22,338 bases of DNA from IMG/VR virus record IMGVR_UViG_3300043467_000556, positions 1 to 22,338 of that record, one strand, 5' to 3'. The notes beneath the pieces are model-generated. The model was not told the origin of the DNA and ran no database searches. It saw only the letters and a list, made by a program, of their open reading frames with translations. The translations under genes were made by a program, and so were the position numbers. Below, piece after piece: positions 7,718-19,548 of this stretch (positions are counted from its first letter, which is position 1; the number at the start of each line of letters is the position of its first letter). The DNA comes from a virus.

Positions 7718-7746
7718 TTTCAATTATTGTGAAATGATAATTGAAA
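7718..7746. other. 10-bp perfect inverted repeat at the distal end of the array
   Basis: TTTCAATTAT (7718-7727) and ATAATTGAAA (7737-7746) are exact reverse complements separated by 9 bases. The right arm runs into the degenerate terminal repeat of the array, so the hairpin sits where the outer half of that repeat should be. Read on the minus strand, the loop contains TTTCAC, which could also pair with the GTGAAA of the neighbouring hairpin at 7689-7705. It may act as a trailer or terminator-like structure for the array transcript. The stem is AT-rich and would be only moderately stable. Confidence 0.5.
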
Positions 7747-8099
7747 TTGTAGACCTCATCCAACTCAATTAACCATTGGTGAACGAATTCCTTCGGGTGT
7801 GACTCCCCTTAAATTTTAGACCTCATCCAACCCACTCCCAAATATACCTTTTCCTTCACAGGTGTGACTCCCCTTAAATTGTAGACCTCATCCAACCTTC
7901 TCTTGGTGAAATCATTTTTGTGTTCATAGGTGTGACTCCCCTTAAATTGTAGACCTCATCCAACTTCGTTACAAGAATGGATGATAATGGAAATGGTGTG
8001 ACTCCCCTTAAATTGTAGACCTCATCCAACAACATTCACATTGTAAGGAATTGTAACAACGCTGGTGTGACTCCCCTTAAATTGTAGACCTCATCCAAC
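7729..8099 (-). CRISPR. CRISPR-like array: six 36-bp repeats, five spacers
   Basis: Repeats lie at 8064-8099, 7995-8030, 7929-7964, 7861-7896, 7796-7831 and 7729-7764. On the minus strand the unit begins GTTGGATGAGGTCTAC and ends AAGGGGAGTCACACC. Four copies are identical, the fifth has one substitution, and the sixth keeps only its first half. The intervening sequences are 33, 30, 32, 29 and 31 bp (from right to left) and are unrelated to one another. A degenerate last repeat at the low-coordinate end implies minus-strand transcription with the leader side at 8099. Lengths fit type II or type V arrays, but I see no strong internal hairpin, no cas gene and no obvious anti-repeat in the window, so the type is unassigned. 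The first repeat lies inside the coding region of the 145-residue gene at 8036-8473. Confidence 0.8.
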
Positions 8100-8473
8100 C
8101 ATCTCTTTGTAAGTTCCTGTGTTTCAGAGTAGTTAAGTCCAAATTTGTCTTCCAAAACTGACCAAATTTCATAATAATTGATATAAACAACCTCATTTTT
8201 TCTATCGTAAATCATAAAATTATGACCTTTTTTAAAACGATATAACGTCCAATCTTCACGTTCTTCGCTCTGAACTGATTCCAGATCGTTAAATAAATTT
8301 AAGAAGTCCATCGGTTCTTTGATGTCAAAAATTTTAAATAAATTATCCAAGGATCCTACAATCTTTACAACAGATTCAAAACCAACTTTTTTAATTAAAC
8401 CCAATAACTTCTCTTTTAAAGAAACGTTTTCTTTGATTAGTTTATATTGGTTTTCAGTTATTATTATTTTCAT
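8036..8473 (-). CDS. Small leader-bearing phage protein whose 3' end enters the CRISPR-like array
   Basis: This 145-residue protein starts MKIIITENQYKLIKEN. I chose the ATG at 8473 over the GTG one codon upstream because the leader then matches those of the genes at 11413 and 11888. The leader holds two (Ile/Leu)-x-Glu sites (ITE and IKE). The rest is helical and charged, with no known enzymatic motif. The C-terminal residues LDEVYNLRGVTP are encoded by the first array repeat, and the last nine residues and the stop lie in the first spacer. The native C-terminus may therefore have been replaced, or the repeat may derive from this gene. It lies between the gp6-like gene and the 1761-residue gene, so a virion role is likely but unproven. 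Confidence 0.7.
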   Translation of the reverse strand: MKIIITENQYKLIKENVSLKEKLLGLIKKVGFESVVKIVGSLDNLFKIFDIKEPMDFLNLFNDLESVQSEEREDWTLYRFKKGHNFMIYDRKNEVVYINYYEIWSVLEDKFGLNYSETQELTKRWLDEVYNLRGVTPALLQFLTM

Positions 8474-11907: not shown

Positions 11908-12637
11908 CTGGCGTTGCAGTAATCGGTGTAATCGTTGATGACAATTGTGGTCCTTGTCCACTAATAAATGGTGTTATAGTAAAAAATCCTGTGTCTGTAT
12001 TTTGTGTACTTGCTTTAGTTACCCAACTTGAGTATGGTGTTTGATTTTTTGCGACCATACCAAAAGTACCAACATTTGGGTATAATCTTGATTTTACCCA
12101 ACCAAGGTTTTGTAAGTCTGTGATGTCACCACCTCCTACTGTGAATAAACTGACACCCTTTCTTATTGCGTTAACACCATCTGTAACGGTGTAATTATTC
12201 TCTTGGTCACTTTCATTAAAGTTAGTTTTAATTGGTGTTTTCCAAACCCAGATTGTGTTAGTACCATTAAAGTATAATGACCCAATAGTATATTCAGACG
12301 CAATATTAGAACCTAAAACCTCAGGGTTTGTTGTGTTTGCGTTTTTAAATACAACAATCGTTTTACCAACCATACCATTAATATCAGTACCCAAATATGT
12401 TTTATACGCATTAATTACATCTTCGTTTCTTGCGTTTTTAGGTAATGATGTACCCATAAGTTGATTTAAACGATCTAATGTTGGGTTCGGTTGTGTCGCT
12501 GGTTGTGTTGGTGTACCTGTTGCTACCGGCGCGACTGCTGGTGTTCCTTGTTCACCTAAAAATTCTCTAGCAATCGCACTTTTGTGCATACCAAGTATTC
12601 TTGATTTTTCTTCTTCTGTTATTAAGAATTTTTTCAT
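11888..12637 (-). CDS. Leader-bearing phage protein with Pro/Thr linker (249 residues)
   Basis: The protein starts MKKFLITEEEKSRILGMHKS followed by AIAREFLGEQ, so it carries ITE and LGE sites like its neighbours. A Pro/Thr/Ala-rich linker (about residues 31-50, GTPAVAPVATGTPTQPAT) leads to a globular part of about 180 residues with DRLNQLMGTSLPKNARNEDV, then a Thr/Asn/Gly-rich beta region, and a Pro/Thr-rich tail ending ATPTKP. The architecture of cleavable leader, flexible linker and domain suits a protein packaged into the head or attached to the virion, but the function is unknown. A TATAAATA motif abuts the start codon. It is the first gene after the terminator that ends the reductase block. 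Confidence 0.7.
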   Translation of the reverse strand: MKKFLITEEEKSRILGMHKSAIAREFLGEQGTPAVAPVATGTPTQPATQPNPTLDRLNQLMGTSLPKNARNEDVINAYKTYLGTDINGMVGKTIVVFKNANTTNPEVLGSNIASEYTIGSLYFNGTNTIWVWKTPIKTNFNESDQENNYTVTDGVNAIRKGVSLFTVGGGDITDLQNLGWVKSRLYPNVGTFGMVAKNQTPYSSWVTKASTQNTDTGFFTITPFISGQGPQLSSTITPITATPATPTKP

Positions 12638-12676
12638 TATTTATAATTTACATATATAAATATAGTAGTAACAAAA

Positions 12677-12700
12677 AAAAACCACTAATTAGTGGTTTTT
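12677..12700 (-). terminator. Intrinsic terminator after the nrd block
   Basis: AAAAACCACT and AGTGGTTTTT form a 10-bp stem around AATT. On the minus strand the stem is followed by a long T-run, the form of a strong intrinsic terminator. It lies a few bases after the stop of the C-terminal NrdA gene and separates the DNA-metabolism block from the virion block. Confidence 0.88.
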
Positions 12701-12707
12701 TTATATT

Positions 12708-13949
12708 TTAAGATGAACATCCAAAACATTCAAAGTCAGAATTTTCGGGTTTTGGTGGTAAATTAATATTTGTATAATTTATTTTTGGTTGTTCCTGTTT
12801 TGGTATTTCTCTTTTTGTAATGTCTACAGCCAAATGTTTCGCTCCAGTTGAGATAGCCTTTGTTCTAACATAATAACACAATGTTTTTAAACCACTTTCC
12901 CAAGAATGGAAATGTGATGATGTGATTTTTGATAGTGTTGGGTCTGCCATATAGATATTCATTGATTGTGATTGATCAATAAAAGGTGCTCTATCTGTTG
13001 CCATATCAATAAGTTGTTTTTGTGATATCTCCCAAATTGTTTTATATTTTGGTATTAGATGTTCAATTCTTTTTACCTTTTTAATATAATTTTTATCTTC
13101 TGGATCAAGGTAATTATTGAAATTAATGTTCTGGATTGACCCCTCGTTCATAATAATTTCATTCTTTAAATCCTCACACCATATTCCAATTTTTTCAAAA
13201 TCATTAATTAAATATTTGTTAACAATCGTAATTTCACCCCCAACAACACGTCTATTAAATATTGCGGAATGTGCTGGTTCTGTCATTTCATATGAACCGG
13301 TAATTTTTGCCGACGAGGCTACTGGCATCTGAGCCGTAAATAGTGAGTTACAGACACCGTATTTATTAACGTTTTCTTTTAATGTTGACCAATCCCAAAA
13401 TAAACTACCCTCATTTAACCCCCACATATCAAATTGAAACACACCTTGTGACATCGGTGACCCATCAAAATAGTCATATGGTTTATATTTACCCTCAATA
13501 CATAGTTGATTACTTTCGTAAATCGCACCATAGTATATCGTTTCAAATATTTCTTTATTAAGTCGTTTTGCTTCTTCTGATGTGAAAATATAATCCATTA
13601 AGTAAAAAACATCCGCTAAACCTTGTACACCAATAGCGATTGCTCGTTGTTCTAGACCACCCTTTCTACCTTTTTCAGTTGAGTAGTTGTTTATATCAAT
13701 TACTTTATTTAACGATCTCACAACCTTTCTAACCTCTTGGAATAATAACTCGTGATTAAATTTACCCCCTTGTATAAAATTCTTTATAACCATTGATGAT
13801 AATGTACAGATCGCTGTGGTTTCCTCGTTTGTCACTTGGAAAATTTCACAATTATGTACCAATATATTATTAGCATAAAAACAAGATGTTTCTGGTACTT
13901 GGATGTCGTAAACATCCTCTTTTTTGTTTAGTTTAGTTATTTTAATCAT
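12708..13949 (-). CDS. nrdA: C-intein fused to C-terminal half of ribonucleotide reductase NrdA
   Basis: Residues 1-33 are a C-intein, with VYDIQVPETSCFYANNILV then the terminal His-Asn, followed by Cys at +1 (residue 34). The C-extein (380 residues) is the C-terminal half of the class Ia reductase large subunit. Glu35 corresponds to E. coli Glu441, Cys48 (in TAICTLSS) to the redox Cys462, and Tyr359-Tyr360 (LCYYVRT) to the radical-transfer tyrosines 730/731. The C-terminal ECFGCSS supplies the thioredoxin/glutaredoxin-reduced cysteine pair. Joined to the N-half, the product is about 805 residues, near the size of other NrdA proteins. The start overlaps the endonuclease stop by 8 bases (ATGATTAA), so translation is probably coupled to it. 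Residue equivalences are from memory of E. coli numbering. Confidence 0.93.
   Translation of the reverse strand: MIKITKLNKKEDVYDIQVPETSCFYANNILVHNCEIFQVTNEETTAICTLSSMVIKNFIQGGKFNHELLFQEVRKVVRSLNKVIDINNYSTEKGRKGGLEQRAIAIGVQGLADVFYLMDYIFTSEEAKRLNKEIFETIYYGAIYESNQLCIEGKYKPYDYFDGSPMSQGVFQFDMWGLNEGSLFWDWSTLKENVNKYGVCNSLFTAQMPVASSAKITGSYEMTEPAHSAIFNRRVVGGEITIVNKYLINDFEKIGIWCEDLKNEIIMNEGSIQNINFNNYLDPEDKNYIKKVKRIEHLIPKYKTIWEISQKQLIDMATDRAPFIDQSQSMNIYMADPTLSKITSSHFHSWESGLKTLCYYVRTKAISTGAKHLAVDITKREIPKQEQPKINYTNINLPPKPENSDFECFGCSS
13851..13949 (-). other. C-intein (33 residues) of split NrdA intein
   Basis: This codes the C-terminal splicing motifs (blocks F and G): VYDIQV, then FYANNILVHN, with the final Asn followed by Cys+1. 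Its length and sequence resemble the naturally split NrdA inteins reported from metagenomic phage sequences. It has its own start codon and no endonuclease domain. Confidence 0.92.
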
Positions 13950-15099
13950 ATTCTATATATTTAAATTTTAAATTTCTATGTTTTTCTCGTTTACCTTTAC
14001 AGATCTGAACTATTGCCGAAGGATTTCCGTTAATATCATTTGCTGCTTCAGTTATTGACTCGTAAATTTTTTCGTTTCCTTCATTATCAATACTCATTAT
14101 TTTTAATTTTCTACCTTTTTTAATATCAAATGTAAATTCGGTATTTTCATATTTAAAGATATTTTTACTATCATTATTGTTTTTACATTTTCTACGTATC
14201 ACTTCAACACAAAATCCTGTTTCTTTTGATGCTTCGTGTACATTGTTAAATATTATTTCGTCTTTTTGATTAATATCTTTTTTATAACATATCTTCTTTT
14301 GTTTATTAGTGCGTTTAGGTTTGACATAATCAGATCTTTTACTTTTACTTAAAACTAATTCTTTATTTTGATATTTCCAATAGTAACCTTTATGTTTTCC
14401 ACCATTATTTAATGATTTATATAGACAAACAGGACTTAAATCATATTTTTTTATCGCGTCTATCGTTTTAAGTGTATCAACAATATTTAAAGTTTCAGGA
14501 CATATAACGTCAATAAGTGGTATTCGTTCATATCTTAAAGTTCTTAATATTTCTTTATGTTTTTCGGTAATTTTTCTACCAGTATTCCAATGGAAACCAT
14601 TTTCTTTTTTAAATTTAGAACTAAAACTTTCTTCTTTCGGTCTTTTATAATTAGGATTGTTTTCACCAGACCATCTTTTAGAAGATATTTTATCTATTTT
14701 TTCACGTAAACCAGGAATTACTTTAAATAAATCACCACCCACACCGCCGTCAGCAATATTTGTTAATATCCCGCCGTCCATATTCTTACCGTAAAATTTA
14801 ATTAAATTTTTTTCAACATCCAAAACTTTTTTTTCATCATCATCTTTATATACAATTACAAAATTAGGTTCAAAACCATTTTCTTGTAGTTTTTTAATTT
14901 TATTAAATTTGTGTGGATTAACTATTTTTTTTATATTTCGTTTAACTTCGTGATAATGTATTAAATGTCGTTCAATCCTATTTTTAGATAAAGAATCCCC
15001 TTTACCAACATAGAATGGTTTGTATTCAACAGAACAAAATTCATTATCATAACAACCTTTTTCCGTATCATCTAATAATATATAAACATAATATCTCAT
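13942..15099 (-). CDS. GIY-YIG homing endonuclease inside fractured nrdA
   Basis: This 385-residue protein has an N-terminal GIY-YIG nuclease domain: YVY at residues 4-6, YVG at 30-32, Arg at 41/44, a likely catalytic Glu96 in LDVEKNLIKFYG, and LTNIADGG at 112-119. Downstream, residues about 140-190 (GENNPNYKRPKEES, then TGRKITEKHKEILRTLR) resemble NUMOD3-type DNA-binding modules. The C-terminal part has two or three repeats resembling IENR1/NUMOD1 helix-turn-helix modules (NNVHEASKETGF and ESITEAANDINGNPSAIVQI). This is the domain order of phage homing enzymes such as I-TevI relatives. It stands alone between the two intein halves and is not fused to either. Its DNA is visibly poorer in G+C than that of the nrd halves, consistent with later arrival. 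Confidence 0.92.
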   Translation of the reverse strand: MRYYVYILLDDTEKGCYDNEFCSVEYKPFYVGKGDSLSKNRIERHLIHYHEVKRNIKKIVNPHKFNKIKKLQENGFEPNFVIVYKDDDEKKVLDVEKNLIKFYGKNMDGGILTNIADGGVGGDLFKVIPGLREKIDKISSKRWSGENNPNYKRPKEESFSSKFKKENGFHWNTGRKITEKHKEILRTLRYERIPLIDVICPETLNIVDTLKTIDAIKKYDLSPVCLYKSLNNGGKHKGYYWKYQNKELVLSKSKRSDYVKPKRTNKQKKICYKKDINQKDEIIFNNVHEASKETGFCVEVIRRKCKNNNDSKNIFKYENTEFTFDIKKGRKLKIMSIDNEGNEKIYESITEAANDINGNPSAIVQICKGKREKHRNLKFKYIEYD

Positions 15100-15130
15100 A
15101 TTTATAAATATACCAATAAAAACAAAACGA

Positions 15131-16714
15131 CTATATGTTAATATCTAAATTGTCATTTTCTAATAAATTATCAGCCCGAACATATCCTCTATTCTTTGTG
15201 TATATTAAATGGTCTGGTGTACATTTAATTGAATATCCGCTTTCTTCGTCATAAATTTCTAAAAGTTCACTATCTTTTCTTGTTAATTTACCAGTCAAAA
15301 TATCAACAAAAATTCCGTCTTTACTTTTTATTTTTAAACGTTCAGAACATTCTATCAATTCAATAACTTCAACCATTGTTAAATTTTCAATATTACCGTT
15401 TTCTCTCTGGATTATTAACTCAACGTCACCAGTTAAACAACATAAATTGGACTGTTTGATGACACCGATGTTTTGGTGGTTGGTTTTTCTATTAGCACTA
15501 TCTTTAGCAGCCAAATAAGGAACACCAGTTTCAACTTGTGATTCAATGATTTTTGACCATATATCTTGTGCTTTAACTTTTTTACCTAAACCCAAACTAA
15601 CCGCCTTATTATAGTTTGTTTCGTATTCATCACCATAACATTCTTGTAGTGGTTTAATTCCAGATTTAATAATATCACTTGGGCAAAATAAATACCAGTC
15701 ACCATTGTTCTTAACCGCTTCCATAAAATTATCTGGTATCCAAAGTGCTGTGAATAAATCACGAGCCCTTAACTCTTCAGCACCTGTGTTTTTCTTAATT
15801 TCCAATAAATCAATAATGTCTTTATGCCAAGGTTCTAAATAAATTGCCGCGGATCCTGGTCTACGACCTTGTTGGTTAAAAAATCTTAATGATTCATTAA
15901 CAATTTTAAGGTATTTCAATAAACCACCAGCATAACCACCAGATGTTGATATTCTACTTTCTTTACTTCGGATATTAGACATTGCCAATCCAATCCCCGC
16001 GGCATCAGATGAAAATGTTGAGATATCTGTCAATGTATCCAAAAGACCTTGTCTTGAATCCGCATTATTATAATGTAATACACACGACGCTAATTGAGGA
16101 ACTTTTGTTCCAGAATTAATCATAATTGGTGTTGCTTTAGAGATTAACTGTTTTGATAATGATTTATAATAATCAACCGCCTCTTCAAAAGTATTGGTTG
16201 TCCACAATGCAACACGCATATACATATGTTGTGGTCTTTCAATCGTTTTACCGTTTGATTTTTTTAATAAATACATTTCTTGTAACGATCTCCAAGCAAA
16301 ATAATCAAAGTTATAATCGTTTTCGTGTTCAATTACCGCGTCAATATTTTCTTCACCATACTCTTTAATTGTTTCAATTAGTATATCGTTAATAATACCT
16401 TCTTCATAAAGTTCAAACATTGTTTGTGTAAAACTAGCATTTGTTTCTTTGTGATATGATGATATTGCAACCGTTGCCGCTAACCTTGAGTAGTCGTGGT
16501 GACTACCTGTATATGCTGCAGCAATCTCATATACCAACTTGTCCAACTCTTTTGTTGTTACTTCACCTTCTGTTGGTACAGATGTAATTACTTTAATAAA
16601 GATTTCGTCAGAATTAACGTTTAACCCTTTAACGGATTTTTTAATTCTGTTGTATATTTTTTGGGGATTAAATGATACGATATCCCCATCTCGTTTAATT
16701 ATTTTTAGTGACAT
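15131..16714 (-). CDS. nrdA: N-terminal half of ribonucleotide reductase NrdA fused to N-intein
   Basis: Residues 1-425 are the N-extein of the class Ia reductase large subunit, which makes dNDPs for phage DNA synthesis. An ATP-cone-like regulatory domain covers about residues 3-92 (IIKRDGDIVSFNPQKIYNRI). Cys211 in QLASCVLHY matches redox Cys225 of E. coli, and ARDLFTALWIPDNFMEAV and RRPGSAAIYLEPWH are family signatures. The extein ends QSNLC, where Cys425 corresponds to the thiyl-radical Cys439. Residues 426-527 are an N-intein beginning CLTGDVE with a block B histidine in CTPDHLIYT. The reading frame stops naturally at the end of the intein half. The gene follows nrdB with a short gap, in the operon order helicase-nrdB-nrdA. 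Confidence 0.95.
   Translation of the reverse strand: MSLKIIKRDGDIVSFNPQKIYNRIKKSVKGLNVNSDEIFIKVITSVPTEGEVTTKELDKLVYEIAAAYTGSHHDYSRLAATVAISSYHKETNASFTQTMFELYEEGIINDILIETIKEYGEENIDAVIEHENDYNFDYFAWRSLQEMYLLKKSNGKTIERPQHMYMRVALWTTNTFEEAVDYYKSLSKQLISKATPIMINSGTKVPQLASCVLHYNNADSRQGLLDTLTDISTFSSDAAGIGLAMSNIRSKESRISTSGGYAGGLLKYLKIVNESLRFFNQQGRRPGSAAIYLEPWHKDIIDLLEIKKNTGAEELRARDLFTALWIPDNFMEAVKNNGDWYLFCPSDIIKSGIKPLQECYGDEYETNYNKAVSLGLGKKVKAQDIWSKIIESQVETGVPYLAAKDSANRKTNHQNIGVIKQSNLCCLTGDVELIIQRENGNIENLTMVEVIELIECSERLKIKSKDGIFVDILTGKLTRKDSELLEIYDEESGYSIKCTPDHLIYTKNRGYVRADNLLENDNLDINI
15134..15439 (-). other. N-intein (102 residues) of split NrdA intein
   Basis: It begins with catalytic Cys1 (codon 15437-15439) in CLTGDVELII (block A) and carries block B as CTPDHLIYTKNRGYVRADNL. 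The length is typical of the N-part of a naturally split intein. No endonuclease domain is fused to it. The preceding extein residue is itself a cysteine, so two Cys codons are adjacent at the junction. Confidence 0.93.
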
Positions 16715-16724
16715 AAATTATATT

Positions 16725-17672
16725 TTAAAAATCGTCCGTGAATGTTATTGTTTCATTTAATTTGGCTTTTTGATATTCCATTGTTCTTGATTCAAAGAAA
16801 TTACCTTTTGTTTCAAGAGCAATTTGTTCCATAAATTTAAACGGTTGTTCAACGTTAAAATGTTTACTACAACCAAATTTAAGTAGTAACCCATCAACAA
16901 CAAACTCAAGGTATTGTTTCATTAAGTTTGAGTTCATACCAATTAACGATACTGATAATGATTCTGTTATAAATTCTTTTTCAATCTCAAGTGCTGATAA
17001 TAGTATTTCTTTAATTCGTTCTTCTGATGGTTTATTTTCTAAGTGATTATTCAACAAATGGATTGCAAAATCACAATGTAGATTTTCATCTTTAAAAATC
17101 AATGTGTTAGCATTACATAAACCTTGCATAATACCCCTAGATTTTAACCAGAAGATAGAACAGAACGAACCTGAGAAGAATATACCTTCAACTGCAGCAA
17201 ACGCAACTAAACGTTCCGCGAACGACGCGTTTTCAATCCATTCTAAAGCCCATTGTGCCTTTTTTTGTACCGCTGGTAGTCTGTCTATTGCATTAAAACA
17301 TTCATCCTTTTCTTTTTGATCTGTAATGTACGTATCAATCAATAATGAATACATTAATGAATGAATATTTTCCATTGCCAACTGAAACCCATAAAAGAAT
17401 TTTGCTTCAGGATATTGTACCTCCCTGTAAAAATTTTCGGCCAAATTCTCATTAACAATACCATCTGATGCCGCAAAAAATGATAACACATTCTTAATGA
17501 AATATTTTTCATTTTCCGTTAAACCTTCCCAGTCTCTAATGTCATTTGTCAAATCAACTTCTTCTGCTGTCCAGAAAGCCGCTTGATGTTGTTTATAATA
17601 ATCCCAAATGTCATTATGTTCAATTGGGAAAATCACAAATCGGTTGGGGTTACTTACTAATATTTTTTCCAT
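16725..17672 (-). CDS. nrdB: Ribonucleotide reductase small subunit NrdB (class Ia)
   Basis: I chose the ATG at 17672 ([20 protein letters not shown]), giving 315 residues. A longer frame would overlap the helicase gene and adds only a Lys-rich stretch. The diiron ligands are all visible: Asp40 in WTAEEVD, Glu101 and His104 in MENIHSLMY, Glu162 in [10 protein letters not shown], and Glu196 and His199 in FKDENLHC. Tyr108 is the radical tyrosine (E. coli Tyr122). The C-terminus ends TFTDDF, the tail that docks into NrdA. It begins 10 bases after the helicase stop and lies just ahead of nrdA, so subunits are probably co-expressed. Unlike nrdA, it is uninterrupted. Confidence 0.95.
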
Positions 17673-17682
17673 ATTCTTTATT

Positions 17683-19065
17683 TTAATTATTTTTATTTTC
17701 TCTTTCTTTTCGTTTTTCCAATAACTCCTTAACTCTTTGTCGTTGGCGTTCTTCTTTTTGTTCTTCAATACCAAGGAATGTTGTTGTTGATTCGGTATCA
17801 ATTTCAATCATACCATTATCAAATTTACAATTCTCAAATACAACACCATCATCCCCAATTCTGGATTTGGTAATGGCAATTGTTGCCAACTTCATTTCTT
17901 TTTGTTGTAATGTTTTTGCAACAGTTATAATGACGTGACCCACTTGTGCTTTCTTAATTGAACCTCCCATTTGGTCTGTTGTAACAACTTCTGATGAGAT
18001 GCTTGCCCGTGAACCTTGGGTTGCTGTCCACCCCACCACATTTAATTCGTGACACATCGCCTCATATGCTCTCATTACAGATCCTTCACTTTTCCATTCG
18101 TTACCTAAATCTTTGTTTGGTAGAATACAATCAATATAGTCCAAAACAATCATATCAATTTTAGTTCCGTCAGCAATCAATTTTCTGACCTCATTTTTAA
18201 TTTGATTCATTGTTACCGTATCCGATGGTATTTTCTTTAAGATTAATTGGTTTGGCATTGTTGATTCAATTTCCTTAACCTTTGCTATTACCTCATCTTT
18301 TTTGTCTGATAATTCATCTGGATGTATCTTTGTCCAAAGTGTAAAGTGTTTTCGTTGTATAATCTGTGGATTATCCTCAAAAAAGATTTGTAAAACATTA
18401 AATCCAAGGTTATACGCATGGTTTGAAATCTTTGTTAAGATTGTTGATTTACCAACACCTGTTGGTGCCAAGATAACCCCCAATTCACCTTTTGCTAAAC
18501 CACCTTTTAATAGTCTATCAATACCAGGTATTCCCATTGGTATTGGATGTCTATAATCTTCATCTAACACCTGATCTAGGTTTGAAAAGACGTTCATCAT
18601 AGTGGTATCTTTTGACCCAACCAATAACGCTTCTCTAACCATTTCCTCTAGGGTATCATAATTTTCAAATTCACCCCCATCAATAATCTTTTGTGCTTGT
18701 TTCATAACACGTTGTAATTCTTGTTGTTTACAAAATTTCAACGCTTTTTCTTGTACAAAGTCGGCACCCTCAATTGGTGCGTTCTTAATTTTCTTAATTG
18801 TATCAAGAACAACTTTAATTGCCGTTTCTTGTTGTAATTCAGACTTAGCCACCTGTTCTAGTGTATCAAATGATGGTGTGTGATCATATTTTTTATGATA
18901 CTCTTTAATCATTTGTATAATGATTTTAAAGTATTTGTTTTCAAAATAGTTGTTTTCAATCACCTCAATAATTGAATGTGAAAACTCCTTATCTAATACG
19001 ATTTGGTTAAGTAGTTGGATTTGGAAATTGTTTCCAAGATATTCAAAGTTTTTGTTTGTCGCCAT
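17683..19065 (-). CDS. 41: Replicative DNA helicase, DnaB/T4 gp41-like
   Basis: This 460-residue protein has the hexameric replicative helicase RecA-type core: Walker A APTGVGKS at residues 200-207, Walker B MIVLDYID near 305-312, and TATQGSR near 347 in the H3/sensor region. The N-terminal 150 residues are helical, like the DnaB N-domain, and the last 30 are a charged helix ([20 protein letters not shown]). It would unwind DNA ahead of the phage polymerase and work with a primase that is not in this window. It is followed by nrdB 10 bases later, linking replication and dNTP supply. The length is close to T4 gp41 (about 475 residues). DnaB-type identity is firm; gp41 equivalence is inferred from genomic context. 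Confidence 0.9.
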
Positions 19066-19104
19066 AGTTTTTCTTTCTGTTAGTAATGATAAATACTACT
19101 AATA

Positions 19105-19548
19105 TTAGATAAATTGTGGATAGAAATAATTAAAATTTTTACCTGAAAAAATGTCAGTTAACTCAGTAAGTATTGTTTTTAGCCTTGGGCGTAGGTCTAC
19201 GGTGTATCTTACCTTTGGTGGGTATACTTTCGCATCAAAAACTCTATGACAAATTGTCATATTATCCACCTTAATAAATAAATTAAAATTTTCATCACCC
19301 TCCGTTATTGACGTATTTAACACGTCAGGATTTTCCCCAATCTCATATTTGTTTTCCAACATATATACGACAGTTCGCATTTTTAAATTATTTTGTAAAT
19401 CATTACAAAACATTCTAATATAATCATAAAACTCTTCTGATTTATGGGCGGTTTTATTATAACCCTTTACATTAAAAAATCGTTGTACAACAATATTGTC
19501 GTTACACGTTAACAAAAACTCTACTTTTGTTGCTTCTTGTTCTTTCAT
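19105..19548 (-). CDS. Unknown 147-residue replication-block protein
   Basis: The protein starts MKEQEATKVEFLLTCNDNIV and is a compact alpha/beta sequence with no membrane segment, signal peptide or known catalytic motif. It lies between the 5' nuclease (2-base gap) and the helicase (39-base gap), so it is co-transcribed with replication genes. In T4 several small replication accessory factors sit near the helicase, but I see no sequence link to a helicase loader or single-strand-binding protein. I do not recognise it. Confidence 0.65.
   Translation of the reverse strand: MKEQEATKVEFLLTCNDNIVVQRFFNVKGYNKTAHKSEEFYDYIRMFCNDLQNNLKMRTVVYMLENKYEIGENPDVLNTSITEGDENFNLFIKVDNMTICHRVFDAKVYPPKVRYTVDLRPRLKTILTELTDIFSGKNFNYFYPQFI

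Follow-up and report, generated by a model that had tools for sequence, protein, structure and literature searches.

We propose that the last 36 coding nucleotides of a phage gene family double as a CRISPR-type direct repeat, with the gene serving as the leader of a mini-array that starts with the gene's own end as repeat 1 and holds one to five spacers, and that these mini-arrays are written by host Cas1-Cas2 acting in trans, a reading to which we assign a probability of about 0.55. Pieces of foreign DNA of ~30 bp would enter directly behind the gene end, duplicating its 36 nt every time, so that the gene-proximal repeat would be the template for later repeats and all repeats of the array would follow the gene sequence. 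Every insertion would also swap a disposable C-terminal tail of the protein.

The window, that is the whole stretch of 22,338 nucleotides that was analysed, is a fragment of a phage carrying baseplate wedge genes. The nearest GenBank phages are ~25-27% identical by baseplate protein and include Flavobacterium phages, and the group apparently comprises large phages of the Flavobacterium type (host inferred). Elsewhere in the window, the ribonucleotide reductase (RNR) large subunit (12708-16714, minus strand) appears to be split, with an ORF whose end resembles an intein N-half, then a free-standing NUMOD-type endonuclease ORF (13942-15099), and then an ORF that starts like an intein C-half (...ANNILVHNC).

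The gene lies on the minus strand at 8476-8036 and encodes 146 aa from a GTG start codon, or 145 aa from the ATG at 8473. It belongs to a multi-copy phage family, and the putative leader is formed by the 3' portion of the gene. The C-terminal region reads ...TKRWLDEVYNLRGVTPALLQFLTM and the protein terminates in ...RWLDEVYNLRGVTPALLQFLTM, the TGA stop codon being at 8036-8038. The 36-nt repeat, on the minus strand GTTGGATGAGGTCTACAATTTAAGGGGAGTCACACC, is present in exact copies at 8064-8099 (repeat 1), 7995-8030 (repeat 2), 7929-7964 (repeat 3) and 7861-7896 (repeat 4) and with one mismatch at 7796-7831 (repeat 5). The array is closed by a degenerate terminal repeat limited to the first 21 nt (7744-7764), similar to the 20-24-nt terminal copies that close many arrays of the family. 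Spacers 1 to 5, read on the same strand, measure 33 nt (8031-8063), 30 nt (7965-7994), 32 nt (7897-7928), 29 nt (7832-7860) and 31 nt (7765-7795). Repeat 1 encodes LDEVYNLRGVTP in frame, its edge lying off the codon boundary, on the final base of TGG (W), and translation then runs into spacer 1, which supplies the tail ALLQFLTM and the stop codon. The initial annotation had reported this overlap between repeat, stop codon and first spacer for the window; we confirm it, and the pattern proved general across phage loci.

A protein search of IMG/VR identified 40 distinct loci of the family, and a search with its alignment 79; the exact repeat was found in 21 stretches and a related repeat in 11. 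The arrangement of gene end and array was seen at dozens of phage loci, and one relative of 296 kb carries 15-19 family members, several of them with arrays. All of these sequences are metagenome assemblies, and the arrangement recurs across many independent data sets. Homologues at 47-58% identity retain WL..VYNLRGVT, with ends of the form WL[DSG].VYN[LI]RG[VI]T or near it, and in each lineage its own gene-end variant reappears 27-33 nt downstream. Since homologues down to ~50% identity keep the peptide and the lineage's own variant recurs downstream, the coding overlap is not due to chance, and by this comparative evidence the repeat is genuinely protein-coding. Beyond the motif, the tail varies by locus and commonly ends in the other frames of the next repeat, as VG or WMRSTI before the stop codon. 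Members that have no array (those at 116811 and 238793 in the 296-kb relative, and L141 and L163) keep the motif as W-L-...-[YF]-N/G-[LI], and the residues that follow it are partly kept. Since these array-less relatives retain WL...[YF]N, the gene end most probably predates the array. When all members were compared, nucleotide constraint was not clearly higher in the repeat than in the rest of the gene.

The AlphaFold2 model of the 146-aa product was confident (mean pLDDT 90.9), and its predicted last helix (115-130) includes WLDEVYN, with low confidence in the final tail residues. One reading to consider is that the frame merely runs by chance from a gene of no relation into a conventional CRISPR array behind it. 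We found nothing in favour of this, and it is refuted by a peptide that is conserved to ~50% identity, forms part of the folded core and has its motif retained in array-less homologues; the homologues neither end before the repeat nor leave its frame unselected. As to function, a PDB fold search gave no indication (E >= 0.5), nor did a viral fold search, in which the best matches were uncharacterised phage proteins (E about 0.002), and there was no recognised enzyme domain in the protein and no match in an Rfam search. Some copies of the family lie within longer proteins (L087:10782-11876, L091:424-1944), and in the 296-kb relative an Fe/Mn superoxide dismutase domain is followed, in one fusion protein, by the family domain and its repeat-bearing end (L098:196-1716). 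At another locus (L251:2726-2959) the frame is open across the whole array, giving four LEETYNLKGLTP units with 10-residue spacers between them. The N-terminus is of a type, MKKIIxTExxxxxI, that is common to unrelated small genes of the window (at 8473, 11853 and 12637, minus strand) and is possibly a shared targeting peptide or propeptide.

The spacers turn over beside the gene. The window is 99.3% identical to a related stretch, L007, over 9.26 kb, and at minus-strand positions 12212-15071 and 15082-19479 (2.9 + 4.4 kb) the two are the same except for spacer 1. Around the array, 7.2 kb are therefore identical base for base and the sole difference is spacer 1, for which L007 has a different 31-mer, altering the protein tail from ALLQFLTM to KMNTWTAPSGVG. 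A second relative, L006, is 99.6% identical to the window and has all its spacers, so that spacers 2 to 5 are common to all three. Spacer 1 of the window and of L007 could represent either two gains or a replacement. Partly shared spacer sets were found for three pairs among 50 distinct arrays, and in 3/3 the distal spacers are shared and the gene-proximal ones differ; as in CRISPR arrays, turnover is thus leader-proximal in every informative pair as well as between the window and L007. These three pairs are the basis for the polarity, and a single pair provides the clean comparison of strains. In the L024 group, flanks are 84-96% identical, yet the same locus holds unrelated spacers, and the spacers are likewise unrelated in L241/L242/L245/L249/L250, where identity is 86-98% upstream and 92-99% downstream.

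Furthermore, the repeats of an array track the version carried by its own gene, as seen in L043, L045, L184, L192 and the two gene types of L242/L244/L246, and in L024 the gene-end variant is present in repeats 1 and 2 and absent from repeat 3. The initial annotation had offered two alternatives, that each spacer gained would rewrite the C-terminus or that the repeat had arisen from the gene's own 3' end. Both are supported and they are mutually compatible, the first by the comparison with L007 and the second by the array-less members and by the lineage-specific variants in the repeats. The position of the gene and the polarity of turnover also support its suggestion that the putative leader is coding sequence. 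At the far end of the arrays the last repeat is degenerate and often ends after ~23 nt, and about half of the distinct arrays have a single spacer, often followed by only ~23 nt of repeat. In many lineages (e.g. L172, L173, L184, L186) the terminal repeat is cut at ~23 nt and followed by an A-rich stretch, a sharp edge that random decay would not produce.

Overall, the 36-nt repeats are combined, as in CRISPR arrays, with about 100 spacers of 27-33 nt that are almost all unique (length mode 30-31 nt, with one degenerate 23-mer and one 20-mer besides); 86 distinct spacers form 81 clusters at 85% similarity. Their composition is foreign to the phage, with a G+C content of 36% compared with 30%, and in a second-order Markov comparison they lie 6.6 SD from phage samples, between phage and Flavobacteriaceae. 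Relative to shuffles, stop codons are depleted in the sense direction of the spacers and, in first spacers only, in the antisense direction too, the antisense depletion being absent from later spacers; this depletion fits pieces of coding DNA. The lengths of first spacers are spread evenly modulo 3 (21/20/17), and therefore the reading frame is not kept. Since, in addition, stops fall at any position, the change of tail looks like a by-product, and a selected role for the new tails is unsupported by these sequences.

No spacer had a full-length match outside the arrays in 1.34 Mb of relatives, and protospacers were not found for four spacers of the window lineage in IMG/VR, for two spacers in GenBank phages or for two in 249 Flavobacterium genomes. 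Two candidate sources were rejected. Spacer 3 of the window (7897-7928) resembles a gene end of the family (YEHKNDFTKRR before LDEV) by a short match only, and in related phages there were partial matches (T32, T46) that span 18-20 nt, do not continue into the flanks and were taken as chance, the DNA being AT-rich. Spacer 2 of L043 and spacer 1 of the window (8031-8063), from distant phages, have ATTCCTTACAA in common within partly palindromic sequence.

These properties bear on whether the repeats could simply be short stretches of homology that swap 3' tails among gene copies, diversifying the C-termini without any CRISPR machinery. T4-like phages recombine readily, the 296-kb phage has the same 23-nt spacer at two of its loci, and there are tandem clusters made of gene-repeat-spacer-half repeat units. 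The shared spacer and the tandem clusters show that these repeats are also subject to ordinary recombination. As the explanation of the arrays it is nevertheless unlikely, since new 30-mers cannot arise by shuffling, almost every spacer is unique and without a source in the 1.34 Mb of relatives, their composition is foreign, and the random length of first spacers modulo 3 implies that the tails are not selected as peptides.

In sequence, the phage repeat resembles the repeats of type VI-B arrays. A degenerate pattern made from the phage repeat and VI-B repeats retrieved 20 loci in GTDB genomes, mostly Bacteroidota arrays with a 66-nt period, with Cas13b adjacent in 3/3 examined; chance matches to the repeat pattern (L114 and L117) also score 24/36. 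Since judging pattern-found loci alone would be circular, Cas13b loci found by protein were used as an independent test set, an array being present at four of them. The phage repeat agrees with these four repeats at a mean of 22.25/36 positions (fixed register, better of two orientations). For shuffled repeats the best-of-four score averaged 13.7, and the observed mean was attained by none of 20,000 shuffles, nor by any of 20,000 synonymous variants encoding the same 12 residues (mean 18.2, SD 1.2). As a control, II-C 36-nt repeats from the same bacterial family showed agreement of 11-15/36 when anchored. The L043-type repeat comes even closer: its alignment to the VI-B repeat of F. beibuense has no gap longer than one base, and 0/1500 recodings were as good; in other lineages support is weaker, with P values of 0.01-0.05 against recoding for the best match, and the lineages are not independent. 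An inner stem is formed by the L043-type and L244-type repeats, and the window type folds weakly (z +1.75), in contrast to genuine VI-B repeats. Spacers are 29-33 nt in window-type arrays and exactly 30 nt in 114/139 host VI-B spacers. Cas13b was not found at the phage locus, and no resemblance to the phage gene was seen in the leaders of host VI-B arrays. Taken together, it is probable that the phage repeat mimics VI-B repeats.

Cas1, Cas2 and Cas13b were not found in the 296-kb relative, which may be incomplete, and PADLOC, applied to 127 of its large ORFs, gave methyltransferases and helicases of other systems as the 25 families listed per batch, a listing too short to exclude further cas genes. 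The adaptation and effector genes expected of a CRISPR locus are therefore not seen in cis, but orphan arrays are known nevertheless. The exact repeat is absent from the GTDB genome contigs (84,980 genomes), which leaves it without a known host array; the identity with a host repeat that characterises viral mini-arrays is thus not seen among these genomes. The VI-B array of Flavobacterium columnare has 36-bp repeats and no adaptation genes of its own, and gains spacers in trans via the II-C Cas1 from phage and host DNA (PMC8092290). Since the phages apparently have no Cas1 or Cas2 and their gene ends resemble Bacteroidota VI-B repeats, the likeliest writer would be the host adaptation complex acting in trans and taking the phage gene end for a leader-repeat junction. 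Against this count the failure to find a protospacer or a host array, the weak fold of the window-type repeat and the broad range of spacer lengths.

Some of the same observations would be accommodated if the phage, or its multi-copy protein, wrote ~30-bp pieces of foreign DNA behind gene ends independently of Cas proteins. The 296-kb relative yielded neither Cas1 nor Cas2, the repeat was found in no host array, spacer lengths are broader than in host VI-B arrays, and a protein of no known fold is always at the array. If true, this would be a second natural mechanism of spacer acquisition besides Cas1-Cas2. We consider it very unlikely, because the repeats fit VI-B arrays in length, period and sequence, no enzyme domain is recognised in the protein, and fusions to other proteins occur among the array-bearing copies.

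If the host complex is the writer, the gene transcript would extend into the array as a pre-crRNA that directs host Cas13b to the targets of the spacers or keeps it occupied. The product may thus be pre-crRNA for host Cas13b, a decoy resembling an RNA anti-CRISPR (Racr), or tolerated damage at a dispensable tail; crRNA or decoy use, and a benefit to the phage, are presumed. Since a VI-B crRNA consists of a spacer and then a complete repeat, loci with a single spacer and a half terminal repeat could not yield one, which argues against every locus making VI-B crRNA. Such loci, which are many, would suit a decoy alone, in which the gene-end repeat and its copies are transcribed as mimics of the VI-B repeat that sequester Cas13b, and the spacers are incidental passengers of occasional integration. 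Also in keeping with this are repeat mimicry beyond what coding explains, up to 15-19 gene copies per genome, the existence of Racrs for most types of CRISPR system, with type VI as an exception (PMC10651486), and the lowering of Cas13b defence by free repeat-only RNA (PMC13187072). Still, a decoy alone leaves the rapid turnover of spacer 1 unexplained and the window-type repeat is missing a stable hairpin, so we regard this as rather unlikely.

Compared with known systems, the loci have in common with the VI-B arrays of Bacteroidota (PMC8092290) a 36-nt repeat that begins GTTG and ends ACA(A/C)C, a ~66-nt period, a repeat sequence that agrees in register and the gain of new spacers at the leader end. 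They differ in that the phage repeat lies within a gene, the hairpin is weak in the window lineage, the terminal repeat is often halved and Cas13b is not found in cis. The viral CRISPR mini-arrays of huge phages and archaeal portogloboviruses (PMC7162821, PMC11656645) are likewise short, cas-less and viral, with unique spacers of ~30 nt. However, those carry a host repeat and spacers against related viruses, neither host repeat nor target being found here, and in the present loci the leader and first repeat are protein-coding and there are many loci per genome. RNA anti-CRISPRs are also phage sequences that mimic CRISPR repeats, but they are non-coding solitary repeats, whereas the phage gene ends are coding and have changing spacers (PMC10651486). 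That survey found solitary repeat units for all types except VI, and these gene ends, if our reading is right, would be a candidate mimic for the missing type (PMC10651486).

If the proposed reading is right, a living CRISPR-type array would have protein-coding sequence for its leader and first repeat, such that the acquisition of memory would edit a protein each time, and host adaptation acting in trans would be exploited by phages, or leave its marks on them, at many gene ends in each genome. Ectopic, non-canonical integration of spacers (neo-CRISPR) is known from E. coli, and there too spacers are integrated outside the normal array at a repeat-like site. Unlike neo-CRISPR, the phage loci appear to be maintained in evolution across lineages and at many loci, and they offer a concrete system for asking how ordinary sequence gives rise to new CRISPR arrays.
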